Virus record (IMG/VR): IMGVR_UViG_3300030107_003032
Span: 1 to 39,771 of that record
Direction: 5' to 3' (one strand)
Origin: a virus
Length of the DNA stretch: 39,771 nt
Both the position numbers and the translations under genes were made by a program. Each line of letters begins with the position of its first letter. The first letter of the stretch is position 1. A model generated the notes under the pieces. The model saw nothing but the letters and a program-made list of their open reading frames with translations, ran no database searches and was not told the DNA's origin. Positions 5,873 through 36,833 of the stretch are shown one piece after another.

Positions 5873-8641
5873 ATGCCTAAACAACTTTTAAGCATACCTA
5901 GCTTTACCGCTGGGGAGCTTTCATCATCTATGGAAGGTCGTACAGACTTCGCTAAATACTTTAACGGAGCAAGCAATATTGAAAATTTTGTTGTACTACC
6001 TCATGGACCAATAACAAGACGACCAGGAACTTATTTTGTTTCTGAAGTTAAAACATCTGCAAATTCCACACGATTAATTCCATTCACATTTTCAACTGAA
6101 CAAACTTATGTATTAGAATTTGGTAATAACTATATTCGTTTTTTTAAAGACAATGGTCAAATTACAGAAGGTAATAAAACTATTACTGCAATTACTGCTG
6201 CCAATCCAGCTGTCGTTACCTCTAGCTCTCATGGTTATTCCAATGGAGATTTTGTAAATATTTCTGGAGTTGTTGGCATGACAGAAGTTAATGGTAAAAC
6301 TTTTAAAGTTGCCGATAAAACTACTAATACTTTTGAACTACAAAATGTTGATGGTACAGATATTAATTCATCTGGTTACACAGCTTATTCTTCTGGTGGT
6401 ATAGCAAACAAAATTTATCAAATCACAACTGATTATACGACAGCTCAACTCTTTGATTTAAAATTCGCACAATCCGCAGATGTTATGTATATCTGCCATA
6501 ACTCTCACGAAGTTATGAAACTTTCAAGAACGGGTCATACTTCCTGGACATTATCAGAAGTCGATTTTGCAGAGACGGGACCCTATATGGATGTCAACAC
6601 CACAACAACAACTATAACTCCAGCTTCTTCCGGAACTGGAACTAGCGTCAATTTTACAGCTAGTTCTATAGTTGGCATTAACGGTGGTGTAGGTTGGGCG
6701 ACAACAGATGTAGGAAGAATTTTAAAATTTAATAGTGGTGAGGCAGTTATTACAGGAAGAACTAATACAACAGTTGTAGTTTGCACAATTACTAAAGCCT
6801 TTGCAAATACCGATGCTACTGCAACTTGGCAACTTGGTTCTTTTTCAGATACTACGGGTCATCCCGCTTGTGTTTCTTTCTTTGAACAACGATTAGTATT
6901 TGCAGCAACATCAGATCAACCACAAACTATGTTTTTTTCTAAATCCGGAGATTATGAAAATATGACATCAGGAACAGATGCTGATGATGCTATGATTTAT
7001 ACCATTGCATCTAACCAAGTAAATGCCATTAAATCTTTAAAAGCTACAAGAACTTTAATCTGTATGACAACAGGTGGTGAATATGCAGTTAGTTCTGGTT
7101 CATCTCAAGATGCTATTACTCCAACTAATATTAATATTAGAAAACAATCTAACTATGGATCTGCTGGAGTAGATGCTTTATCTATTGGAAACGCTACAAT
7201 CTTCTTACAAAGAGCTAAAAGAAAAGTTAGAGAGCTTGCTTATAACTTTGATACAGATGGTTATGTTGCACCAGACTTAACAATTTTGGCGGATCATATA
7301 ACAGAAAGCGGAGTAGTTCAAATGGATTATCAACAAGAACCTTACTCTGTTGTGTGGGGAGCAAGAACGGATGGTGTGTTAGCGGGTTTGACTTATAATA
7401 GATTAGAAAATGTTGTTGCTTGGCACAGACATATTATTGGCGGTAAATCAGACACTACAAAAAATATTATTCATCAACAAATTTCTTTTACATCAAATTC
7501 TACAATAGTTAATACAACTAATAATACTATAACTTTAACTTCTCATGGTTTATCTACAGCTGATCCCGTTTATTACTATGCTGGTTCTAATGCTATTGGA
7601 GGTTTAAACAATTCAACATTATATTTTGCTATCGCATCAGATAGTAACACAATCAAATTAGCAACAACCGCTTCTAATGCTACAGCGGGAACAGCTATAT
7701 CTTTTACTTCAGCTCCAAGCTCAGACACAACTCAATATATTTACCAAGGTGTAAATATTTCATCTAATTTTATTTATTCAGCTTCTCATGGTTTTACGAC
7801 AGGTGATATTTTTTATTATGATAATACAGGAACTGCTATTGGTGGTTTGTCTGAAAATACAAAATATTACATTGAAAAAATAGACGACAATCAATTTAAA
7901 CTTTATTCAAACAAAACTTTAGCTACGGTTGTTAGTTTAACATCAGCTCACACATCAGAACAAACTGATAATATTTTAACTCATGCTAAAGTAGAAAGTG
8001 TTGCCGTTATTGATGGCGATAGCGATGAAGATCAAGTTTGGGTTATTGTTAAAAGATGGATTAATGGATCGGTAAGACGATATGTTGAATATTTTACTCC
8101 ATTTGATTTTAATGAAGATTTAACCGCATTTCATTATTTAGATAGTGGATTAAGTTACACAGGAGATTTAACTTCAAGTCTTACTGGTTTAGATCATTTA
8201 GAAGGAGAGGTGGTTGATGTTATTGGAGAAGGATCTGCTCAAAATTCTAAAACTGTTAGTAGTGGAGCAATCACTATTACTAATGCTACTGAACAAGCAA
8301 AAGTAGGATTACTTTATACATCTGATTTACAAACTATGAGATTAGATGAAGGTTATACTGAAACAACACAAACGAAAACAAAAAGAATTTACGACTTATC
8401 CGTTAGATTTCAAAATACAGTTGGTGCAAGCGTTGGACCCAACGCTGGTAATTTAACCTCAATAGATTTTAGATCAAGTGGATCTTCTATGGATTTACCT
8501 ATCCCATTATTTACAGGAGATAAATCTATTGAATTTGATACAGACTACGGAACAGAAGGTTTGGTTTATGTGCAACAATCACAAGCTTTACCTATGACGA
8601 TACTTGGAATTTATCCTAGATTGGAGACAGAAAGTGTCTAA
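5873..8641 (+). CDS. Tail tubular protein B (nozzle)
   Basis: A 922-aa protein of the T7 gp12-like nozzle family. The family signature is at the N-terminus: FTAGELSSSMEGRTDFAKY, then GPITRRPGTYFV. The body contains several beta-rich SSHGYSNGDFVNISG-type and LTSHGLSTADPVYY-type repeats that resemble inserted small beta domains. These may explain its being longer than T7 gp12 (794 aa). It should form the hexameric tail tip that touches the receptor during ejection. Confidence 0.9.
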   Translation: MPKQLLSIPSFTAGELSSSMEGRTDFAKYFNGASNIENFVVLPHGPITRRPGTYFVSEVKTSANSTRLIPFTFSTEQTYVLEFGNNYIRFFKDNGQITEGNKTITAITAANPAVVTSSSHGYSNGDFVNISGVVGMTEVNGKTFKVADKTTNTFELQNVDGTDINSSGYTAYSSGGIANKIYQITTDYTTAQLFDLKFAQSADVMYICHNSHEVMKLSRTGHTSWTLSEVDFAETGPYMDVNTTTTTITPASSGTGTSVNFTASSIVGINGGVGWATTDVGRILKFNSGEAVITGRTNTTVVVCTITKAFANTDATATWQLGSFSDTTGHPACVSFFEQRLVFAATSDQPQTMFFSKSGDYENMTSGTDADDAMIYTIASNQVNAIKSLKATRTLICMTTGGEYAVSSGSSQDAITPTNINIRKQSNYGSAGVDALSIGNATIFLQRAKRKVRELAYNFDTDGYVAPDLTILADHITESGVVQMDYQQEPYSVVWGARTDGVLAGLTYNRLENVVAWHRHIIGGKSDTTKNIIHQQISFTSNSTIVNTTNNTITLTSHGLSTADPVYYYAGSNAIGGLNNSTLYFAIASDSNTIKLATTASNATAGTAISFTSAPSSDTTQYIYQGVNISSNFIYSASHGFTTGDIFYYDNTGTAIGGLSENTKYYIEKIDDNQFKLYSNKTLATVVSLTSAHTSEQTDNILTHAKVESVAVIDGDSDEDQVWVIVKRWINGSVRRYVEYFTPFDFNEDLTAFHYLDSGLSYTGDLTSSLTGLDHLEGEVVDVIGEGSAQNSKTVSSGAITITNATEQAKVGLLYTSDLQTMRLDEGYTETTQTKTKRIYDLSVRFQNTVGASVGPNAGNLTSIDFRSSGSSMDLPIPLFTGDKSIEFDTDYGTEGLVYVQQSQALPMTILGIYPRLETESV

Positions 8642-9086
8642 TGTAGTTATTGTTCCATTTGAAAATCAACACGCTGAACAAATATTAAATCAAGGTTTAA
8701 ATAGCGATTTACTGGAATTAAAACCAGAGCATAGAAAATATGCTTATTTTTTAAAAGAAGTTGGAATGTCGTTTACAGGTCTAGTCAATAATAAACCTAT
8801 TGCGGCTGGAGGTGTCTTTCATCTCTGGGATGGCGTTGCCGAGGGGTGGGTCTTAGCAACAAAAGATATTTATAAATATCCAGTTTTTTGTGCTAAACAC
8901 ATTAAACAAAGAACTGAAATAATTTTACAAGCCAACAAAATAAAAAGATTACAAACTTCCGTAAAAGCTAACTGCGATGTAGCATTAAGATTTGCCAAGT
9001 GGTTAGGTTTAAAAGAAGAAGGATTAATGAAAAGTTATGGTCCCGATGGATCAGACTTTATAAGATTTGCGAGGATAATTAAATAA
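8634..9086 (+). CDS. gp13-like virion protein with GNAT-like fold
   Basis: About 150 aa; the likely start is GTG 8634, with GGAG upstream, rather than an ATG 30 nt earlier inside the tail gene. The sequence (VVIVPFENQHAEQILNQGL, GGVFHLWDGVAEGWVLATKD, VKANCDVALRFAKWLGLKEEGLM) matches phage gp13-type proteins with an acetyltransferase-like fold. In T7, gp13 helps assembly of the ejected internal proteins. Acetyl transfer itself is not established. The gene abuts the next internal virion gene. Confidence 0.75.
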   Translation: MSNVVIVPFENQHAEQILNQGLNSDLLELKPEHRKYAYFLKEVGMSFTGLVNNKPIAAGGVFHLWDGVAEGWVLATKDIYKYPVFCAKHIKQRTEIILQANKIKRLQTSVKANCDVALRFAKWLGLKEEGLMKSYGPDGSDFIRFARIIK

Positions 9087-9538
9087 TGAGTTTTTTTGGA
9101 GACATATACGCTGGTAAAGCATCACAAGCAGCAGCTAACTTTAATGCTCAAATCATGGAGCGTAATGCTAAAATGAAAGAGCAAGAGGCTAAACAGATTA
9201 TGTCTGTTCATAATGATTATAGCCTTCCAAGATTTGATAAAACAGTTGAACAAATACAGGGTCAAACAACAGTAGCTTATTTATCTAGTGGAGCTGCTTA
9301 TTCTGGTTCTGTTTTAGAAGCCTTATATCAACAAGAACTAGAACTAGAAACCGACAGAGATATTATGCAATACAACGCAGAGAACGCTAGAGATCAAAAA
9401 TACAATGAGGCAATTCAAGACAGAGCTGATGCTGATATGTCTAGGTGGAGAGGTAAGGTTGCTAAAAAAGCATCTTACTATGCAGCGGGTCAAAGTTTAT
9501 TAGATACTGGCTTATCAGTTTATAACGCAATGAGGTAA
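9086..9538 (+). CDS. Internal virion protein (gp14-like position)
   Basis: A 150-aa Ala/Gln-rich, helical protein starting at the overlap with the gp13-like stop. Patterns such as ASQAAANFNAQIMERNAKMK and QTTVAYLSSGAAYSGSVLEA recur in small internal virion proteins of podoviruses. These are ejected first and help form the channel across the outer membrane. The assignment rests on order and pattern, since this family is poorly conserved. Confidence 0.7.
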   Translation: MSFFGDIYAGKASQAAANFNAQIMERNAKMKEQEAKQIMSVHNDYSLPRFDKTVEQIQGQTTVAYLSSGAAYSGSVLEALYQQELELETDRDIMQYNAENARDQKYNEAIQDRADADMSRWRGKVAKKASYYAAGQSLLDTGLSVYNAMR

Positions 9539-9542
9539 TTAA

Positions 9543-11678
9543 ATGGCAATAAAATTATATAAATCACAATTAGAACCAACAAGCAAAACTTCTAATGTTG
9601 CTGACAGAAGGCAAATCAGCATGAGTGAGGCTGGATCTATTGGTAGAGCTTTTAAAGGAATGATGAAATCAGGTGAAAACCTTTATGTAAAACACCTGGA
9701 TATTAAATCTGATAATGAAGTTTTAGAAAAATCTAAAGAAGTTATGAATGGTACTGAAGCTAAAACTGGTTTAAGTGAAACTATTTTAAAAGCTAAACAA
9801 ATGAAAGATCCTGATGCTGCAGTAAAATTATACAGCGATGCTTGGAAGTCTTGGTTAGATACAGAAAAAAATAATGTTTCTTGGATGGCTAAAAAGAAAC
9901 TTTCTAATTGGATGAACAAACAACAATTAAAAGATACTAATTCTATAAAAGTCTCAGCTACAGCAAACATGATAAATGGTTTGCAAAATAATATTACAGA
10001 TCAAGCAAACACTCTAGCTAAGACTATTGTTTATGGATCAACTAAATTTGAAAAAGAGACAGCTAAACAAGAATTAAAAACTTTATTAGGTAGCACAAAA
10101 ACAGCAGAGGCTATGGGTGCTAAATTAGATGTACTTAAAAAATCAGTTGAAAGAGATATAGCTTTTTACGGCTATAAAAATGTTGCAGTAGGAGATTATG
10201 CTAAAGCTTTAGAGCTGGCTAAAAAAGATAATAGATTAGAAATAGCAGATATTGAAAAATTAAAAACACATTTTAAAACTTCTAAAACAGCTAATAATAA
10301 ATTAAACAAAGATACAGTTGCTAAGATGGAAACTGCCATGACTAATGGCATTACATACAATCAAGAAGAATATAATTTAGCAATGACTACAGCTATTGAA
10401 AATGAGGATCAAGCTACAATTCTAAAATTAAAAGATTTACAAACCGAGGCTGGTTATTATGTTCAACTTTCAACAATGTCAACTTCAGATATTGAAAATA
10501 GAATTAATATTTTAAATGAATACAAAAACAAGAAAGTTTCTGAAGGAACTGGAATGGAAAATAAATACGCTATAAATTTAGCAACAAGTAAAAAATTTTT
10601 AGCTAAGTTAGAAAGCGATTTAAATAAAGATCAATTAAAAACTGGAAGTGATAGAGGCATACAACAAATTGAAGAAATAGGTTTTAACGAAATGTTAATA
10701 AGCGGTAATGTTGAAGAATTTGCTAATGCTGTTAATGTTAGAATGGCTAAAGCAGAAACGATTGCTGCCTTTTACAATAGACCACCGGTTTATTTTACTG
10801 AAACAGAATTAAAATCTATTCAGACAACTTTTGCTAATGTTCAAAATACTTCTCAGGTTATTCAATTAACTTCAGCGTTAGTAAATGCTTTTGGAGATAA
10901 AAGCGATACAGCTTTTAAACAAATTTCAAAAAGCAATACTGTATTAGCTCATCTTGGCGGACTTGTTATAATGAATGACAAAACTGCTGGAGAAAATGCA
11001 GAGCTGCTTGCTGAAGGTTATATGATTTCACAAAACGAACAATTAAAAAACATTTATCAAGTTCCAACCTCAGATGTTGGTCTTTTAACTAAAGTAAGAA
11101 AATACTCTAAAATATTTGGATCTAACACAGATACTTTTAATAATACTGTAGAGGCAGCTAATTATATTTATATGGCTACTTTAAAAAGAGACGGAAAGAC
11201 TAAAAAGAATTTTGATAAAGACGATTGGGAAAAAGCATTTTTACAAGCATCCGGACAAATTAAAATTAAAAATAAATTTTTAGGAATGGATTACTTGTCT
11301 ATAGATGACAAAATGGGTGGCTACGATAAAGATACTCGAGGCAACGATGTTCATATTCCAAGCTGGCTACCTACTGGTTCTTTTAGCAAAGTTGTTGAAA
11401 GAATCAAAGAAGATGAAAATTTATGGCTTAAATCTTCTAATGGAAAAAATGCAGTTATAGGTGATGGTGTTAATAGAGGCAATGAAATTACTTTAGCAGA
11501 AATTTTTAAAGAAGGTGATCCTTATTTTGTAAGTATAGGAAATGGTAAATATAAAATTGCTACGGGTGAAGATCCTACTAGCGATGGAGATCCTGAGTAT
11601 TTAATGAACTCTGATGGTAATTATTTTGTAATTAATATTAATAAAATTAGAGACGAAATTATAACTGGAATAAATTAA
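9543..11678 (+). CDS. Internal virion protein (gp15-like position)
   Basis: A 711-aa, largely helical Lys/Ala/Asn-rich protein without membrane segments, placed as T7 gp15 (747 aa) is. Its N-terminus (LEPTSKTSNVADRRQISMSE) resembles other podovirus internal core proteins. It should be part of the core that leaves the virion and forms the periplasmic part of the DNA conduit. Its stop overlaps the start of the next ejected protein by 1 nt, which suggests coupled, stoichiometric synthesis. Confidence 0.7.
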   Translation: MAIKLYKSQLEPTSKTSNVADRRQISMSEAGSIGRAFKGMMKSGENLYVKHLDIKSDNEVLEKSKEVMNGTEAKTGLSETILKAKQMKDPDAAVKLYSDAWKSWLDTEKNNVSWMAKKKLSNWMNKQQLKDTNSIKVSATANMINGLQNNITDQANTLAKTIVYGSTKFEKETAKQELKTLLGSTKTAEAMGAKLDVLKKSVERDIAFYGYKNVAVGDYAKALELAKKDNRLEIADIEKLKTHFKTSKTANNKLNKDTVAKMETAMTNGITYNQEEYNLAMTTAIENEDQATILKLKDLQTEAGYYVQLSTMSTSDIENRINILNEYKNKKVSEGTGMENKYAINLATSKKFLAKLESDLNKDQLKTGSDRGIQQIEEIGFNEMLISGNVEEFANAVNVRMAKAETIAAFYNRPPVYFTETELKSIQTTFANVQNTSQVIQLTSALVNAFGDKSDTAFKQISKSNTVLAHLGGLVIMNDKTAGENAELLAEGYMISQNEQLKNIYQVPTSDVGLLTKVRKYSKIFGSNTDTFNNTVEAANYIYMATLKRDGKTKKNFDKDDWEKAFLQASGQIKIKNKFLGMDYLSIDDKMGGYDKDTRGNDVHIPSWLPTGSFSKVVERIKEDENLWLKSSNGKNAVIGDGVNRGNEITLAEIFKEGDPYFVSIGNGKYKIATGEDPTSDGDPEYLMNSDGNYFVININKIRDEIITGIN

Positions 11679-14107
11679 TGAGTATATTTTTTGATGAAGA
11701 TAACGCAAAAGTTGCTCCTTCAAATGAAAGCTGGAGCTTAGGTGCTAAAACTGATTTTATGGAAAATGCTAGTGCAGCATTTAAAGCATTTAGAAAAACA
11801 GAGGTATCTACTTCAGAATATATTAATGAAGGTGAAGAAATAGGAAATGCTATTCAAATTTTAAATGAGTCTGGACACTCAGATATTTTAGATCCATTAG
11901 ATCCAATGAATTTTGTTGTTGACGATACTGAGATAACTCCCAATAGAGACGCTATGCAAGCAGATTTTTGGAAAAAGGTTGAAGAGCTTGCAGCATTAGA
12001 TCCTATTTTAAAAAATAAATTAACTGAGGCTGGATTACAATCTCAAGCAGCTATGCACGAAACAATTAAAAAAAAATCTCACAGTGCTTGGCAAGAATTT
12101 ACAGACATAAATCAAAGAGCCACGGGTTATGGAAAAGCTGGTGGATTTGCTGGAATAGCTGGAGGAGCTTTTACAGATCCTTTTATGCAAGCCGCAGTAG
12201 TTGCATCTTTTGGTTATTCTATACCAGCAACAATTGGAGCTGCTGCTTTAAGAATTAGTTTAATGGAGGCAGCTATTGGCGGTGTTGCAGAAACAGCAAT
12301 ACAATTAAAAGCTCAACCTTATAGAAAAGAATTAGGTTTTGAAGATGCTGGATTAGCAACGGGTGCAAAAAATATTGCAACTGTTTCCGTTGCATCAGGA
12401 GTATTATCTCCATTATTATTTGGAGTGTTTAAAGCTTTTGGTAAAGGCATTGATGTTGGTAAAAAACATTTAATGAAATTACCTACAGAAGATTTACAAA
12501 AAATTAATAAAGAGCTTGGAAAAATTAATCCTAAATTTAAAAATGAAGTTTTAGAAAATGCCGAAATACCTAAAAAAGATATACCTGAGACAAATACTCC
12601 AGCTGCAAGAACTGAGCATAGAGAAAGATTAGACACAGCAATAAAAGCTATTAATGATGATGCTCCAGTAGATCTACCAGCAATTAAAAATAAAATTATT
12701 TATCATGGTACAAATAAATATTTTAAAGAGTTTGATTTAAATAAAACTGCAGATCAATCTATTTGGTTCACAGATGATATTAATGCTATTAAAGCTGGGA
12801 CAGTAGGAGCTACCGGTAAAGGCAATATTATTGAAAGAATACTTGACGAAAAAAAATTAAAATTAGCAACTGCAGAACAAGCTGATAAATTAACAGACGA
12901 TCAATTAATATCCCAAGGTTTTGATGGAGTTAAATTTGAAAGATCAGCTGGTTTTACAGAAAATAACTATAGAATTTTTAATACAGAAAAATTAGATGTT
13001 ACTTCTCCCGTATCTTCTAAAAGTGGTTTTAATAAAACAGAAAGTAAATTAGCTGAGGATATTGAAGCTGTAAAAGATTTTGATGTACCTACTGAGGCAA
13101 CTTTTAAAAATCAAGCTTTAAATAATGAAAGATCTGTATTTGATGTATCAACTTCTTCATCCATTAGAAGAGAGGCTGGTGCGGGAGCTGCTGCTAAAAC
13201 GTCTCCTACTGAATTTTCTGAGGCAACCCAAGCTTTATCTGCAGCATCCCAAAGAACAGATGCAACTCCAGTATCAGTTTTAGCTAAAGCTAATATAGAG
13301 CCACCACTATTTCGTGGTTTAGATACAAGTAATGTAGGTGTCAAAAGTGCCATAGTTGGTTCTAAACATCCCACAACCAATAAGGTTATTTATCACAAAA
13401 CCGATCAGTTTGATGAGATATACAATACTTTAACAAATAAAATGCCAGATGTGAAGAGTAATCTAGAACCAATTGCTAAAAAATATGGTGGCAATTTAAA
13501 AGCAAGAATAAAGCAAAAAAAAGAACTTAATAAAAAATTAAAACAAGGAACAAAACCTGAGCATATATCTGATTATTTAGGAGCTAGAATATCTACAGAT
13601 ACCATTTTTCAAGCAAAAATGGCTGTAAATGATTTAAACAAACAATTTAAAATTCTTAGTATTGATGACTTTTTAAGTGATGCTGGAAGAGTAGTAGAGA
13701 GTGGAACTGAGTATAGAGCTATCCATGCTCAAGCTTTGACAGATGATGGATTTAGTTTTGAGATACAGATTAGAATTAAAGATCTAGATCCTTTAACAGA
13801 GAAATCTCATGCCATTTATAAGAAAAAGAAATTTCCTGAGAAAGAATATACAGATGCAGAGTTTGCAAAAATTGTTAAAGAAGAAAAAGCAATAAATTCT
13901 AAATTAAGAGCTAAGTATTTTCAAATTAAAGATAAAGAATTTTTAAAATTAAAAAGCACAGATCCAATGGATATTCCTATTCCTATAGGAACAAGAATAG
14001 ATGATGCTACGGGTGAAAAAGTACCTTTAACTAAAACAGCTAGGGAATTATTTGAGGAAGATGCTAAAAACGAAACTATGCTTAAAAGATTGGAGAACTG
14101 CGTATGA
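11678..14107 (+). CDS. Ejected virion protein with ADP-ribosyltransferase-like and RelA/SpoT-type domains
   Basis: An 809-aa multi-domain protein in the internal-virion operon. Residues about 150-255 are Gly/Ala-rich and hydrophobic, as in proteins that insert in the cell envelope. Residues about 338-446 look like the ART domain of polyvalent proteins: YHGTN at 342-346, IWFTDD at 362-367, GFDGVKFE at 414-421, then NYRIFNTEKLDV. Residues about 605-720 look like the RelA/SpoT nucleotidyltransferase fold: ARIKQKKELNKK, DYLGARI at 632-638, YRAIH at 679-683, FEIQIR at 694-699, SHAIYK at 710-715. The putative catalytic Asp632 and Glu695, the base-stacking Tyr679 and His683 are all present. No hydrolase (HD) domain is seen. 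Domain calls are by motif; substrate and activity are inferred. Confidence 0.82.
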   Translation: MSIFFDEDNAKVAPSNESWSLGAKTDFMENASAAFKAFRKTEVSTSEYINEGEEIGNAIQILNESGHSDILDPLDPMNFVVDDTEITPNRDAMQADFWKKVEELAALDPILKNKLTEAGLQSQAAMHETIKKKSHSAWQEFTDINQRATGYGKAGGFAGIAGGAFTDPFMQAAVVASFGYSIPATIGAAALRISLMEAAIGGVAETAIQLKAQPYRKELGFEDAGLATGAKNIATVSVASGVLSPLLFGVFKAFGKGIDVGKKHLMKLPTEDLQKINKELGKINPKFKNEVLENAEIPKKDIPETNTPAARTEHRERLDTAIKAINDDAPVDLPAIKNKIIYHGTNKYFKEFDLNKTADQSIWFTDDINAIKAGTVGATGKGNIIERILDEKKLKLATAEQADKLTDDQLISQGFDGVKFERSAGFTENNYRIFNTEKLDVTSPVSSKSGFNKTESKLAEDIEAVKDFDVPTEATFKNQALNNERSVFDVSTSSSIRREAGAGAAAKTSPTEFSEATQALSAASQRTDATPVSVLAKANIEPPLFRGLDTSNVGVKSAIVGSKHPTTNKVIYHKTDQFDEIYNTLTNKMPDVKSNLEPIAKKYGGNLKARIKQKKELNKKLKQGTKPEHISDYLGARISTDTIFQAKMAVNDLNKQFKILSIDDFLSDAGRVVESGTEYRAIHAQALTDDGFSFEIQIRIKDLDPLTEKSHAIYKKKKFPEKEYTDAEFAKIVKEEKAINSKLRAKYFQIKDKEFLKLKSTDPMDIPIPIGTRIDDATGEKVPLTKTARELFEEDAKNETMLKRLENCV

Positions 14108-16620
14108 GTTATAAGCAATGTATTATTAATGGCGTTAGGGAGGGTTTAATTAGTGAAGAGCAAGCTCATACATTAAATAAAAATTTTGATGAAGTTAGAG
14201 ACTTTTATCAATTTAGAAAAAATTTAAGTAAAGAAGATGCTGAGAAAGCAGCTGCTAAAAAATCTTATGATGAGCTTAAAATAGAGCAAGCTGAAAAACT
14301 TAGATACACTATAGCTATGAAAAACTATATGGATGAGTTTAATACTCATTTTAATACTTATAGAAATGCTAATGGTGAAGTAGATTATGCAAATGCTTAT
14401 AGAGCTAAGTTAGCTCAAGATAATATTTCTAATACTCCAAACATTGAAAGACAAACAGACATTGAAAGAGGTAAAGCTCATCAATTAATGGCTGATCTAT
14501 TAGATCAGTTTAGATATGGCTGGGGAGGTAGAAGATCCAAATTACAAAAAACTAACATAAAAATTATGGTTAGAGAAATATTTGGAGAAAATACTGGAAA
14601 TCAAAATGCCAAAGATTTAGCTAAAGCCTGGAAGGCTGCTGCTGAGCATTTAAGAAAAAGATTTAATTATTTTGGCGGTAAAGTTTTATCAAGAAAAGAT
14701 TGGGGACTACCACAGATCCACGATACGTTATTAGTAAGATCTGTAACAAAACAATATTGGGTAGATTATGTTTTACCAAAATTAGATTTAGATAAAATGG
14801 TTAATGAAACAACTGGTTTGCCATTTAGCGATAAAGGCATACGAGAGGCTTTAGAAAGTGTGTACGATAATATAGCAACTGAAGGTATGGCAACTTTTAA
14901 GCCTGGTACTTCAAGTTATGGAAAAGCTTTACACAATAGAAAATTAGATCATAGATTTTTAGCTTTTAAAAGTGCTGATGATTGGATGGAATACCAGGCA
15001 AGATTTGGTACAGCTGATCCTTTTAAAACTATGATGGATCATGTAAGCGGTATGTCTAGAGATATTGGTATGATGAAAATATTGGGACCCAATCCTGATG
15101 CTATACACACATACGCAAAACAAGTAATTAGAAAACAAACTGGTATTGATGTTGCAGCTGAGGCTCAAGGAAAATTTAAAAGAAAAAAAATACTTAAAGG
15201 AAGAACAGAAACAGATAGAACTGAGGCAATTTTAGAAAATGCTGAAAATCTTTATGCTTATCACAAAGGCTCTTTACATAGACCCATTGATGGATATTTT
15301 GGCAATTCATTTGCAGCTCTAAGACAGATCTTAACTTCTGCACAATTAGGAGGAGCTGCGGTTATGGCAATCACAGATTTTCACTGGTCAAGGATTACTT
15401 CTAAATTTAATGGTTTAAAAACTTATAAAGCAAATACAAATGCTTTAAAATTTTTAACAGAAGGAACAAAAAAAGATAAAGCTTTAGCAAGAACTGCTAT
15501 AAGACTTGGTTTAATTGCAGAGCATTGGTCAACTGTAGCTGGTGTTGCAGCAAGATATTTAAATGAAGTGGATGCTCCATTTTGGTCAAAAAGAGTATCT
15601 GATTTTGTTTTAAGAGGAACTGGATTATCACACATAACACAATCTGGTAAATGGGCGTTTGGAATGTCTGTAATGGGAGAACTTGCAGATCAAATTGGAA
15701 AACCTTTTAGTAAATTAGATAAAAGATTATCTGCACAAATGCAAAAATATGGCATTGGTGAAAAAGAGTGGGATATTATTAGAACAACTAAATTATATGA
15801 TGCTGGTATTGATGAGCCTAGCATGGTTGGAAAAGGAGCTACTTTTTTAAGACCCGATGATATTATGAAAAGAGCTGATCTAGATGAGGCAACAAGAGAA
15901 TTTTTAACAACTAGATTATTAACTTATGTAACAAATGAAACTAACTTTGCTGTTCCAACAGCATCTGCTAAAGGTAGAATTACTTTAGCTGGATCTGCTC
16001 AACCAGGAACATTTAAAGGCGAAATAATAAACTCTGTTTTAATGTATAAAAACTTTCCTATAACTTTAGGAATGACACATCTACATAGAGGATTACAACA
16101 AGTCGGCTTAAAAGGAAAAATGAAATATTTAGTTCCTATGGTTTTAGGCGGAGCTTTAATGGGATCTTTAGCTTATGAAATTAAACAAGTAGCAGCTGGT
16201 AAAAAACCAACTCCTCCTTCAGAAATGGGAGTAAGATATTGGCTTAACGCTATGATTTATGGTGGTGGATTAGGAATATTTGGAGATTTTTTATTTACAG
16301 ATACTAACAGATATGGGGGTTCTTTTGCTAAAACTTTAGCTGGACCCGTAGCTGGTTTTATAGGTGATAGTATTAATTTAACAGCTGGTAATCTAGCTCA
16401 ACTTGTAAGTGGTGAAAAAACTAACGCTGGAAAAGAGTTAGCAGCGTTTATACAACGATATACGCCAGGATCTAATGCCTGGTATACAAGATTAGTTTTT
16501 GAAAGAGTTATATTTGACACTATAGAAAAGCTTTTAAATCCTAATTACGATACAGATAACAGAAGGAGAACAAACCAAATGTTAAGCAAAACTGGTCAAG
16601 AATACTGGTGGTCTCCGTAA
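14104..16620 (+). CDS. Large internal/polyvalent-type virion protein
   Basis: An 838-aa protein whose ATGA start overlaps the preceding stop, so the two are probably translated together. The N-terminal part is helical and charged, and the central part contains KDWGLPQIHD and DPFKTMMDHVSGMSRDIG. Two hydrophobic segments near residues 673-694 and 710-729 could span or enter a membrane. The overall pattern resembles the C-terminal parts of large phage polyvalent proteins and gp16-position ejection proteins. No lytic transglycosylase motif was recognised. It probably completes the trans-envelope channel. Confidence 0.68.
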   Translation: MSYKQCIINGVREGLISEEQAHTLNKNFDEVRDFYQFRKNLSKEDAEKAAAKKSYDELKIEQAEKLRYTIAMKNYMDEFNTHFNTYRNANGEVDYANAYRAKLAQDNISNTPNIERQTDIERGKAHQLMADLLDQFRYGWGGRRSKLQKTNIKIMVREIFGENTGNQNAKDLAKAWKAAAEHLRKRFNYFGGKVLSRKDWGLPQIHDTLLVRSVTKQYWVDYVLPKLDLDKMVNETTGLPFSDKGIREALESVYDNIATEGMATFKPGTSSYGKALHNRKLDHRFLAFKSADDWMEYQARFGTADPFKTMMDHVSGMSRDIGMMKILGPNPDAIHTYAKQVIRKQTGIDVAAEAQGKFKRKKILKGRTETDRTEAILENAENLYAYHKGSLHRPIDGYFGNSFAALRQILTSAQLGGAAVMAITDFHWSRITSKFNGLKTYKANTNALKFLTEGTKKDKALARTAIRLGLIAEHWSTVAGVAARYLNEVDAPFWSKRVSDFVLRGTGLSHITQSGKWAFGMSVMGELADQIGKPFSKLDKRLSAQMQKYGIGEKEWDIIRTTKLYDAGIDEPSMVGKGATFLRPDDIMKRADLDEATREFLTTRLLTYVTNETNFAVPTASAKGRITLAGSAQPGTFKGEIINSVLMYKNFPITLGMTHLHRGLQQVGLKGKMKYLVPMVLGGALMGSLAYEIKQVAAGKKPTPPSEMGVRYWLNAMIYGGGLGIFGDFLFTDTNRYGGSFAKTLAGPVAGFIGDSINLTAGNLAQLVSGEKTNAGKELAAFIQRYTPGSNAWYTRLVFERVIFDTIEKLLNPNYDTDNRRRTNQMLSKTGQEYWWSP

Positions 16621-26987: not shown

Positions 26988-27064
26988 TGGTCTGGCTGGT
27001 TGGATTTGAACCAACGATCCTCTGCTCCCAAAGCAGATGCGATACCAGGCTTCGCTACAGCCAG
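26988..27064 (-). tRNA. tRNA-Pro (anticodon UGG), complete
   Basis: On the minus strand a full cloverleaf can be drawn. The acceptor stem CTGGCTG/CAGCCAG has 7 perfect pairs. The D-stem is GCGA/TCGC, the anticodon stem is TCTGC/GCAGA around loop TTTGGGA (anticodon TGG), and the T-stem is GTTGG/CCAAC around TTCAAAT. A discriminator A and an encoded CCA follow. The first base is C, as usual for bacterial tRNA-Pro. It lies downstream of the integrase on the same strand, so it may be read from that transcript. Such tRNAs are also common integration targets. Confidence 0.93.
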
Positions 27065-27590: not shown

Positions 27591-28763
27591 CTAACCTTCT
27601 AAAAGATTATTGATTGCTTTGATTCTTTTCTCTTTATTGTGATCCAAGTCTCTATAGTACCACCTGTCAGGAGTATCAGAGTTCGTCCAGCCTAATCTTC
27701 TAAGCAACTGATCCTTTGGAAGAGCTTTAGTATCTTTAAGATAAGAATAACTAAACTTTCTAAAGGGAGATATTCCACCTTCCCATTTAATTCCTAGTTT
27801 ATCAGCAGCTTTTTGAACTCTTCTTTTAGCCATCTTCTTAGATACATATCCAAAAATCATTCTATATTGACCGGATCTCTTAGGGTTCACTTGTTTTCTT
27901 ATCCATCTTTTTAAAATAACTGATAGCTGATGACTAATTTCCACTCTTCTTTTAGAACTAGCTGTCTTTAAAAAGTTTTCTCTAAAGTTATTCCATTTAT
28001 CAGTTGTATGATTAAAATTGATTGTTGGAGGATCGCTTATTAAATTGGTATCTGAGTAAGTTAATCCTAGTAATTCATTTAATCTACAACCTGTTTCCGC
28101 TGCGGTATGGAATAAAGCTCTATTCAATATATCCTTTTCACTATTTACCAATAAAACTATATCTTTATACTTAGGCATAAACTTCTTTTTAGTATTCTCT
28201 CCCTGGAAAAAGTTTTTATTAAATTTCCAATCTAAAATAGCTCTATCAATAACCCACTTTCTATCCATGCAATACTTCACAAATAATTTAAAGTTGGCAA
28301 CTGTATCTTTAACAACCTTTTTACCAATGGTTTTATTGGTTCTAACTATTGTACTAGCTCCACCTGGTAAGTTCTTAACCATAGTGCATTTTGAGGCTAG
28401 GAGCTGCGGTAAGTAGCTTTCTTTAAAGTCGTGGTAGGTGTAGTCGGATAATAGCTTTTTGCTTATGTATGGCGATATATGGTTGTTTATATAGCCACAA
28501 ATATGCAGTTTAGTCTCTTCCACCTTAAATTGATCCTTTAATATTGATTTCTTATATTCTTTAAAAGCAAGATCAAAAGACACCTCTTGAGGCATTACTA
28601 AATCAGGATCTTTATTTTTTAACTCTTCAACATAAGCATTGGCTTGTCTCTTCTGGTTAAGATCAAATATTTGTAAGTTTTTCTTTTTGCCTAGATTATC
28701 CATAGCTTGAACAACCCAAACTGATTTAGTTTTTCTTTTAACTTTACAGATTTTAAACTTCAT
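27591..28763 (-). CDS. int: Tyrosine-family site-specific integrase
   Basis: A 390-aa recombinase that would join phage and host DNA at att sites. The N-terminal part is basic (arm binding). A core-binding domain covers residues about 60-170 and the catalytic domain about 195-385. Key residues are Arg227 (ETGCRLNELLGL), Lys271 (SSKRR), Arg335 in SPFRKFSYSY, Trp359 (RRLGWT) and the nucleophile Tyr369 or Tyr370 (DRWYYRD). The usual His of the HxxR box is Ser332, a tolerated change in this family. It is last in the leftward operon and 1 nt overlaps the gene before it. Confidence 0.93.
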   Translation of the reverse strand: MKFKICKVKRKTKSVWVVQAMDNLGKKKNLQIFDLNQKRQANAYVEELKNKDPDLVMPQEVSFDLAFKEYKKSILKDQFKVEETKLHICGYINNHISPYISKKLLSDYTYHDFKESYLPQLLASKCTMVKNLPGGASTIVRTNKTIGKKVVKDTVANFKLFVKYCMDRKWVIDRAILDWKFNKNFFQGENTKKKFMPKYKDIVLLVNSEKDILNRALFHTAAETGCRLNELLGLTYSDTNLISDPPTINFNHTTDKWNNFRENFLKTASSKRRVEISHQLSVILKRWIRKQVNPKRSGQYRMIFGYVSKKMAKRRVQKAADKLGIKWEGGISPFRKFSYSYLKDTKALPKDQLLRRLGWTNSDTPDRWYYRDLDHNKEKRIKAINNLLEG

Positions 28764-34665: not shown

Positions 34666-34889
34666 TTATGAAAACTTTAATAGTTGTAATAGCCATCTTT
34701 TACTTTTGGTTATTGTTTAATGAAACAGCTTTTACAAGTGAACACGAAACATTTTGTAAATCCTACATGGTTTGGGTTAATAAATATCCTACAGCTCTTA
34801 ATGCTGGTTGCTGTGAAATAAATCATCCCTCTAACGATATTTTAAAAGAAGGCTGGAAAGGAGAAAGCTTACTGAATTGTTATGGATAA
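34638..34889 (+). CDS. Small exported or anchored protein
   Basis: An 83-aa frame; an inner ATG at 34668 gives 73 aa beginning MKTLIVVIAIFYFWLLFNET, which is a signal-anchor. The outer part has Cys (ETFCKSY, NAGCCEIN, LNCYG) and aromatic residues, consistent with a disulfide-bonded periplasmic domain. It overlaps the methyltransferase start by 8 nt. Function unknown. Confidence 0.58.
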   Translation: MDNHDKTDLIMKTLIVVIAIFYFWLLFNETAFTSEHETFCKSYMVWVNKYPTALNAGCCEINHPSNDILKEGWKGESLLNCYG

Positions 34890-35670
34890 AATACATAATA
34901 TAGATTGTTTAGAGTTTATGAAGGGTATTAAAGATAACTCTTATGATGTTGTAATAACTTCACCACCTTACAATATTGGAAAAAATTATAATTTATACAA
35001 TGATAACAGAAGTGATTATATTGAGTGGCAAAAACAAGTTTTTAATGAAGTATGTAGAGTTTTAAAATCTAATGGACATTTGTTTTTAAATATTGCCTCA
35101 ACAAAAAACGATCCTTTTGCTCCGTATAAAATTGCAGAAAAATTAAATTGGAAATTACAAAATAATATTATTTGGTGTAAAGCTATAGAAATTGATGGTT
35201 ATGTAAGAGGCTATTCTACTCCTACATCTAGTAAAAGATATTTACAAAATGGCTGGGAGCATTTATTTCATTTTACTAAAAATGGTAATACAGAAATAGA
35301 TTTAGAGTCTAGTGGAGTTCCTTATAATACTGATTATAACAATGCCGTTAGAAATGAAAAAAGAACTGGTAAGAATTGGCGACCAACTACTACTTGTTGG
35401 CATATAACTTATAAAAGCAAAGCTACCAAACAAATTACCAGGCAGATTACTGGAGATAAATTACACCCAGCAATATTCCCAAAAGCATTAGTTAAAAAAT
35501 GTATTCAAATATCAGGTTTAAAGAAAGGAATTATTTTTGATCCTTTTAGCGGAACTGGCACGGCTTTAGTTGTTGCTAAAGAAATGGGTTTAGATTTTGT
35601 TGGGTGTGAAATAGATAAAGATTATTCTAATTTTGCCAATCAATTATTAAATAACAAAATATTATTTTAA
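34882..35670 (+). CDS. DNA methyltransferase, beta class with SPPY motif
   Basis: A 262-aa enzyme that should move a methyl group from S-adenosylmethionine to an exocyclic amino group in DNA. The catalytic motif TSPPYNIG is at residues 26-33 and the cofactor motif FDPFSGTGTALVVA begins near 219. This order places it in the beta class with the target-recognition region between. SPPY is usual for N4-cytosine enzymes but also occurs in adenine ones. No restriction partner is adjacent, so it probably protects phage DNA or affects regulation. Confidence 0.88.
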   Translation: MDKIHNIDCLEFMKGIKDNSYDVVITSPPYNIGKNYNLYNDNRSDYIEWQKQVFNEVCRVLKSNGHLFLNIASTKNDPFAPYKIAEKLNWKLQNNIIWCKAIEIDGYVRGYSTPTSSKRYLQNGWEHLFHFTKNGNTEIDLESSGVPYNTDYNNAVRNEKRTGKNWRPTTTCWHITYKSKATKQITRQITGDKLHPAIFPKALVKKCIQISGLKKGIIFDPFSGTGTALVVAKEMGLDFVGCEIDKDYSNFANQLLNNKILF

Positions 35671-35897: not shown

Positions 35898-36276
35898 TTA
35901 CTTTAATAAAGGTGATCCCTACAGCGAGTGGCACAGAAGTTTAAATAATAAGCTTGGTTATATTGACATCGATCAGGTTCAAATCTGTCTTAAATGTAAA
36001 TTACCATTATTTTTAGCAGAAACTACTTTCGATGTGGGTCAACCTTGGAAAGCTACCACAACAACAGAAGCTCTGGCTCGGCTAGCTGGTTTACCTAGTT
36101 TTTTAATATTTTATAAAGTTAATGATAAAAGGGAAGTTATAAGATTTAGAATAAAGCAACTCACACCCACAAAAGATCAAAAGACAGTTATTTTAACTCC
36201 AGATGCTTGGGTACAAGCTATGGAATTAATCCAGGATAGACATAATTTAATATGTAGAAAAAAGGATGCAGCTTAA
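35884..36276 (+). CDS. Unknown conserved early protein with WHR...DID pattern
   Basis: A 130-aa protein. YSEWHRSLNNKLGYIDIDQV resembles phage proteins of a restriction-enzyme-like type in which WHR, DID and a later E-x-K lie on one fold. Here the expected E-x-K reads AETTF, so activity may be lost. It ends KKDAA in a TAATG junction with the MT-A70 gene, implying coupled translation. Function uncertain. Confidence 0.55.
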   Translation: MARNNYFNKGDPYSEWHRSLNNKLGYIDIDQVQICLKCKLPLFLAETTFDVGQPWKATTTTEALARLAGLPSFLIFYKVNDKREVIRFRIKQLTPTKDQKTVILTPDAWVQAMELIQDRHNLICRKKDAA

Positions 36277-36833
36277 TGGATCTACCTAATAAAAAATATA
36301 ATATTATTTATGCAGATCCAGCTTGGCGACACGAAACTTGGAGTGAAAAAGGTAGAGATAGATGTCCCGATGGTAAATTAGGTCATTATTCTACTATGGC
36401 ATTAGAAGATATAAAAAAACTTCCTATTCAAGAAATATCAGACAAAAATTGCATTTTATTTATTTGGGTATTAGATCATATGTTGCCACAATCATTAGAA
36501 GTTATAGAGAGTTGGGGTTTTAAATATTCTACCATAGGATTTAATTGGGTAAAAAGAAATAAAAATTTTGCTTTAGGTGATGATAATTTTTTTGTTGGTA
36601 TGGGTTGGTGGACAAGAGCAAACCCTGAATTATGTCTAATAGCAAAAAAAGGTAAGATTAAAAGACAATCAGCATCAGTAAGAAGATTAGTAGTAACACC
36701 AAGAGAAGAACACAGTAAAAAACCTGATTGTGTAAGAGATCGTATTGTAGAGCTTTGTGGAGATCTTCCACGCATAGAGCTATTTGCAAGACAAAAAACT
36801 CCAGGCTGGGATGTTTGGGGAAATGAGGTATGA
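36276..36833 (+). CDS. MT-A70 family adenine methyltransferase
   Basis: A 185-aa enzyme of the N6-adenine family. ADPAWRHETWS at residues 13-23 is the DPPW-type catalytic motif, with Ala at the third position. LGHYSTMALEDIKKLPIQEI, WGFKYSTIGFNWVK and NPELCLIAKKG follow in family order, and REEHSKKP is the usual late block. It is the second methyltransferase within 1.4 kb. It may mark phage DNA against restriction. Confidence 0.9.
   Translation: MDLPNKKYNIIYADPAWRHETWSEKGRDRCPDGKLGHYSTMALEDIKKLPIQEISDKNCILFIWVLDHMLPQSLEVIESWGFKYSTIGFNWVKRNKNFALGDDNFFVGMGWWTRANPELCLIAKKGKIKRQSASVRRLVVTPREEHSKKPDCVRDRIVELCGDLPRIELFARQKTPGWDVWGNEV

Follow-up and report, generated by a model that had tools for sequence, protein, structure and literature searches.

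A predicted RelA/SpoT-type pyrophosphokinase in a putative polyvalent ejection protein of a probably SAR11-infecting podovirus

Background

Phage-type polyvalent proteins are large, multidomain proteins for which injection along with the DNA and an alarmone-like early shutdown have been proposed; RelA/SpoT domains, as well as ADP-ribosyltransferase (ART) and DdrB-ParB domains, are among their described components (Iyer et al. 2017, PMC5512222). Here we analyze a protein of 809 amino acids (aa) that is encoded in IMG/VR virus record IMGVR_UViG_3300030107_003032, the entirety of which (39,771 bases, GC content 33%) is the window examined. The gene (P0001; 11678..14107, on the + strand, as are all features of this gene and its neighbours given below), which was delineated as an open reading frame with its translation, starts with ATG and contains no internal stops. 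On balance, we lean towards the view that its product is a polyvalent protein ejected by a temperate podovirus, probably one that infects SAR11, and that it delivers an alarmone-type pyrophosphokinase together with a second effector. This view is based on matches to the RelA_SpoT family above the cut-off in all relatives tested, a confident structural model, invariant donor, metal and acceptor residues, synthetase motifs of the RelA/SpoT homologue (RSH) type, a constant gene order, the sharing of cassettes with proteins of another scaffold (L017) and of Dunaliella viridis virus SI2, and the presence of the alarmone pathway in the likely hosts.

The proteins described by Iyer et al. have the same large multidomain build with RelA/SpoT, ART and DdrB-ParB domains, whereas the present marine podovirus family combines a fixed RelA domain with one exchanged cassette. 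The likeness to T4 Alt lies in the ART domain; Alt is injected with the DNA (PMC5512222) but is an ART of the R-S-E type and lacks a RelA domain. The Apk2 MuF toxins (PMC12226406) are also phage proteins with a RelA-fold domain toward the C-terminus but, in addition, have a MuF domain, a (p)ppApp signature and downstream immunity genes, none of which is found for the 809-aa protein.

Given the findings of Iyer et al. and the existence of uncultured-phage proteins with a RelA fold, this kind of protein is already known. The predicted structures of three large uncultured Caudovirales phage proteins, A0A6J5MFM5 (ART-PolyVal-like), A0A6J5KIV2 (DdrB-like) and A0A6J5Q8J2 (RelA/SpoT), match our model of the RelA domain at E-values of 3e-8 to 7e-7. 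Judging by the names and fold matches of the A0A6J5 proteins, on which alone the comparison is based, the pairings of ART with RelA and of DdrB with RelA appear to be already on record. The original prediction, made from the DNA alone, held that the pairing of ART-like and RelA/SpoT-type domains would be unusual; this was an overstatement, considering that both the PMC5512222 proteins and the A0A6J5 proteins precede it. The additions made here are the family itself, the fixed-plus-exchanged design and the altered acceptor loop. Searches of the available literature yielded no direct report of RelA/SpoT domains in pelagiphages or in podovirus ejection proteins. Should the protein be ejected and active, a stress-signal enzyme would enter, along with the phage DNA, cells of some of the most abundant marine bacteria, hosts for which just one RSH-like gene is seen in most of the genomes sampled. 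Virion-borne alarmone synthesis was predicted in 2017, and our literature searches found no demonstration of it for such proteins; as the family keeps a constant enzyme apart from an exchanged one within one gene slot, it becomes directly testable.

The RelA/SpoT synthetase domain

The firm half of the protein is a genuine RelA/SpoT-type synthetase domain (residues 575-760; 13400..13957), which was delineated from Pfam, an AlphaFold model, Foldseek and a profile match. The PF04607 (RelA_SpoT) model matches residues 610-717 with an E-value of 1.7e-8 and a score of 35.2 bits, above the curated cut-off of 27, and the same family is matched in 8/8 full-length relatives of the first alignment (best E-value 6.4e-12). 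The model of the domain is confident, with a predicted local distance difference test score (pLDDT) of 85 and a predicted TM-score (pTM) of 0.79. Comparison of this model to the PDB using Foldseek yielded 72 matches at E <= 0.001, the best 50 of which are SAS, Rel/RelA, SpoT, Tas1 and CapRel structures; the top matches, to SAS2, SAS1, RelP, Rel, CapRel and Tas1 (a type VI effector), have E-values of 5e-7 to 3e-5, and the TM-scores of the best matches are mostly 0.4-0.67. A profile built from 14 sequences of the domain retrieved Rel chains among the PDB sequences (best E-value 2.7e-7) and also matched SAS2. The fold assignment made in the original prediction is thereby borne out, and so is its observation that the HD hydrolase is absent: Pfam models of HD and TGS domains have no match in the 809-aa protein, which, accordingly, is not a long bifunctional RSH.

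Profile alignment to Rel places the predicted active site residues in register with those of RelSeq. Specifically, R610, K612 and K620 (13505..13537) correspond to R241, K243 and K251 on the ATP side; D632 and R637 (13571..13588) correspond to D264 and R269; in the Y679-R-A-I-H683 motif (13712..13726), Y679 and H683 correspond to Y308 and H312; and E695 (13760..13762) corresponds to E323. The motifs that had been read from the translation by eye, namely RIK...K at 610-620, D632, YRAIH at 679-683 and E695, occupy the positions proposed for them. In RelSeq, K243 and K251 belong to the ATP side and H312 to the acceptor side. For the other RelSeq residues, the roles have been described, namely a place on the ATP side for R241, Mg2+ binding for D264, adenine stacking for R269, guanine stacking for Y308 and catalysis for E323 (PMC7983052). 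R610, K612, K620, D632, R637, Y679, H683 and E695 are all invariant in 15 sequences. In the Rel domain, pairs divergent enough to be informative have a ratio of nonsynonymous to synonymous substitution rates (dN/dS) of 0.13-0.40; the domain is under purifying selection. The best reading of the domain, from sequence and model, is a predicted ATP-dependent pyrophosphokinase in which the site for ATP and Mg2+ is intact.

The synthetase motifs (A/S-x-H, A-x-R, I-R) resemble those of the RSH type and differ from those of the (p)ppApp type (GxN, RYT, YH; PMC12226406). This difference bears on the possibility that the protein belongs to the MuF/Apk2 kind of polymorphic toxins and, carried by the phage, would produce (p)ppApp in the competition of a lysogen with other bacteria. 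Such a role would be compatible with the features of the phage, which carries an integrase and a Cro/CI-like repressor and looks temperate, and with those of the Apk2 toxins, which are phage head-associated and have a C-terminal RelA-fold domain (PMC12226406). However, apart from the lack of the Apk signature, the 809-aa protein has no Pfam match to the MuF domain; no iapK/aph1-like immunity gene is located downstream, where the next gene encodes an overlapping virion protein, and there is no immunity-like gene between the 809-aa gene and either of its neighbours, both of which overlap it. Furthermore, the RelA domain is constant and the other cassette is variable, whereas polymorphic toxins vary at the C-terminus. 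With the wrong synthetase signature and the immunity genes missing, we reject this very improbable reading.

Modular organization and the exchange of cassettes

Scanning of IMG/VR with the RelA part of the protein yielded 9 loci, with the RelA alignment 21 loci, and with the ART part 7 loci. The RelA domain is carried by 21 viral contigs and by one contig of a Pelagibacter metagenome-assembled genome (MAG), the latter coming from a genome collection. The full-length orthologues have the N-terminal 325 residues, the linker, the RelA domain and the C-terminal 45 residues in common and differ in the middle. Four cassette types are found around the constant RelA domain: the ART cassette (in the virus record studied here and in loci L001, L012 and L015), a DdrB/ParB-like module (L007, L008 and L037) and two modules of no known family (one in L002 and L003, the other in L019-L022, L030, L031, L034-L036 and L038). 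The DdrB/ParB-like module matches phrog_10691 (E-value 1e-43); it has no Pfam match, and we take its name from the DGHQR motif and from general knowledge of the family. As originally proposed, the 809-aa protein has the modular build of a phage-type polyvalent protein, with at least two unrelated effector domains and exchange between relatives. Exchange of the RelA modules or alleles themselves is visible as well, because nearly identical N-terminal modules are combined with strongly diverged RelA domains, with dS values of 0.12 and 0.66, respectively, for L001 versus L015, and 0.12 and 1.66 for L007 versus L037.

The cassette present in the 809-aa protein (residues 336-446; 12683..13015) is delineated by a Pfam match below the cut-off, its recurrence and a low-confidence model, and is probably an ART domain of the ART-PolyVal-like kind. 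PF18760 (ART-PolyVal) matches residues 339-417 with an E-value of 9e-5 and a score of 23.7 bits, below the curated cut-off of 31.2, and the match is seen again in 4/8 relatives. Overall, five proteins show this sub-threshold match, which, together with the conserved H343 and a poor model that nevertheless retrieves ART folds, makes the assignment probable. The ART identity proposed in the original prediction is therefore retained for the match and its recurrence, at a strength limited by the score. The best fold matches of the model are ParT, PARP4 and tankyrases, mostly of the ART fold (E-values 0.03-0.4); a profile of the cassette has no match in the PDB. With respect to an H-Y-D active site (strands 1, 2 and 5), H343, in the YHGT strand, is invariant, and D416 is present in most of the sequences, with E in L012.

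An ART cassette that is 77% identical to that of the 809-aa protein is found in a different scaffold, L017 (2-3322), on a T7 gp16-type ejection protein. The L017 protein belongs to phrog_342 (internal virion protein with an endolysin domain; E-value 3e-86), and its PF18760 match (E-value 1.8e-5, 26 bits) is likewise below the cut-off of 31.2.

The remaining parts of the protein are constant regions. The N-terminal module (residues 1-325; 11678..12652), delineated from a 13-sequence alignment and hydropathy, is kept in all relatives and includes two hydrophobic stretches (residues ~172-204 and ~232-255, from hydropathy); family searches with it gave a single, weak match, to phrog_8824. The Ser/Ala/Thr-rich linker (residues 447-570; 13016..13387), delineated by alignment and composition, is kept in the relatives. 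The C-terminal tail (residues 765-809; 13970..14104), which ends with RLENCV and is kept in all relatives according to the alignments, might possibly function as a packaging or ejection signal. Comparison of the tail to phages gave only matches to Gordonia phages, at chance level.

Genomic context and predicted ejection

The 809-aa gene is embedded in a row of internal virion protein genes, as the original prediction held. It overlaps both the upstream and the downstream neighbour by a few bases, and these overlaps make its co-translation with the late structural genes probable. Upstream are genes for a gp13-like internal virion family protein (8604..9086; phrog_4177, E-value 1.4e-29; phrog_308, E-value 1e-13), a gp14-like internal virion protein (9086..9538; phrog_418, E-value 9.1e-7) and a 711-aa protein without a family match (9543..11678), which occupies the gp15 slot, a slot shared with those relatives whose contigs reach it. 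Downstream is the gene for an epsilon15-like virion structural protein of 838 aa (14104..16620; phrog_684, E-value 6.7e-157), homologues of which are present in Dunaliella viridis virus SI2 and in SPN1S. The order of nozzle, gp13-like, gp14-like, 711-aa, 809-aa, phrog_684 and fibre genes is maintained in all orthologue loci, up to the contig ends. The 711-aa and 809-aa genes are the fastest-diverging among the internal-virion genes.

The same order is found in the epsilon15-like phage SPN1S, where nozzle, two internal virion proteins, a large protein, the slot in question, the phrog_684 protein and a tailspike follow one another. The location of the 809-aa gene, between the gp14-like/711-aa pair and the phrog_684 gene, agrees with the original prediction. 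The SPN1S protein in this slot, in contrast, is 600 aa long, belongs to phrog_1145, has no detectable similarity to the 809-aa protein and contains no known enzyme domain. According to a review of podovirus ejection proteins, the gp16-type homologues of P22 and epsilon15 are syntenic with T7 gp16 but have little sequence in common with it (PMC8954989). Profile comparison of the N-terminal module to the proteins that occupy this slot in SI2 and SPN1S gave no match; a single BLAST pair of the module with SI2 shows a weak colinear alignment (E-value 0.004), which is not used as evidence. The SI2 protein in this slot (DVVG_00008; L039, 6489-8867), annotated as hypothetical, contains the DdrB/ParB-like module of L007 and L037.

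Owing to the internal-virion slot and the ART cassette shared with a gp16-type protein, it is likely that the 809-aa protein is present in the virion and ejected. The same two observations argue against the alternative that the protein is not ejected, being either a late product that acts inside the infected cell or a purely structural core protein. The position of the gene implies expression with the late genes, and the searches turned up no virion proteome from this phage group, which would fit that alternative; we nonetheless regard it as rather unlikely.

Predicted function and alternative readings

Under the proposal of an ejected alarmone synthetase with a second effector, the protein would be packed in the head together with other core proteins, and the hydrophobic N-terminal module would enter or cross the host envelope, so that the C-terminal half would reach the cytoplasm before phage transcription starts. 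The RelA domain would then transfer pyrophosphate from ATP to the 3'-OH of an acceptor, most likely a guanosine nucleotide, yielding a (p)ppGpp-like alarmone that would lower host rRNA synthesis, translation and replication, and the exchangeable cassette would hit a second host target, for example, a defence component.

Several observations weigh against this proposal. In the acceptor loop (PKxNGYxSxH), Y679 and H683 are kept, but S-G-T replaces K-x-N, and DFLx stands in place of the RXKD/EXDD motif; hence, the acceptor may differ or the activity may be low. One subclade carries the changes A681R and R699S. In the ART cassette, for which the pLDDT is 56, strand 2 lacks a clear tyrosine and has W363-F364 there. 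Profile comparison did not significantly match the N-terminal module to any known ejection protein. Finally, a tblastn search of 50,697 isolate phage records with the 809-aa protein found nothing at E-values up to 1, so that there is no annotated relative or virion proteome to consult.

The degenerate loop raises the possibility that the RelA domain has no catalytic activity and has a binding or structural role instead, such as that of an alarmone or tRNA sink or a part of the core stack, and the subclade with A681R and R699S could be taken the same way. Yet the donor, metal and acceptor-stacking residues are all invariant in 15 divergent sequences under purifying selection, and we consider loss of activity quite improbable. 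In L030, L031, L034 and L036, the change of YRAIH to YRRIH occurs jointly with the replacement of the EIQIR arginine by serine, as if the arginine gained in the acceptor loop compensated for the one lost in the next strand.

The G-loop's loss of K-x-N, which binds guanine, also speaks for the domain being a tRNA pyrophosphokinase like the known toxSAS enzymes (PMC11559606); after ejection, it would pyrophosphorylate the 3'-CCA ends of host tRNAs and block translation. CapRel is among the fold matches, and the domain carries a net positive charge (37 K+R versus 29 D+E), although this charge is weak evidence. The profile search that recovered Rel and SAS2 from the PDB, however, retrieved no toxSAS chain at E-values up to 10, so that the similarity is one of fold only, and a stop of translation would harm the phage too. 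We therefore view this possibility as unlikely, and a guanosine nucleotide is favoured over tRNA or ATP as the pyrophosphate acceptor. A further reading is that the RelA-fold pyrophosphokinase with its non-canonical loop, ejected by a widespread SAR11-type podovirus lineage, makes a different 3'-pyrophosphorylated acceptor that is neither (p)ppGpp nor (p)ppApp nor pyrophosphorylated tRNA, with the exchangeable effector helping to disarm the cell before transcription; taken as a whole, this combination seems improbable.

Phage type and host

The portal protein of this marine phage is most similar to those of pelagiphages (58-59%), one orthologue (L038) is on the Pelagibacter MAG contig, and the window encodes a tRNA-Pro with ~80-83% identity to sequences from genomes of the Pelagibacter family; these observations make SAR11-type bacteria the likely, not proven, hosts. 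The tRNA-Pro gene (TGG; 26988-27064, - strand) is located near the tyrosine integrase gene (27591-28763, - strand) and may mark the site of attachment or else be a tRNA gene carried by the phage. A long RSH-like gene is present in most of the sampled genomes of the likely host family (120/147), which indicates that the alarmone pathway exists in this family; the four RSH-like frames that were read contain both a hydrolase motif, HDTIEDT, and a synthetase motif, RFKDY. The MAG that includes L038 shows only the phage-type RelA copy, from which nothing is drawn, because the MAG may be incomplete and 120/147 sampled genomes of the family have a long RSH-like match.

Parts of the gene for the large terminase subunit lie at both ends of the contig (39172-39771 and 3-467) and are in different frames when joined; together they encode ~70 aa less than the HTVC010P gene. 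The virus record is permuted, and a short stretch is probably missing. The region opposite the late genes encodes an N4/N6 DNA methylase (34882-35670; Pfam E-value 9.6e-45) and an MT-A70-like protein (36276-36833) with a DPAW motif that was read by eye.
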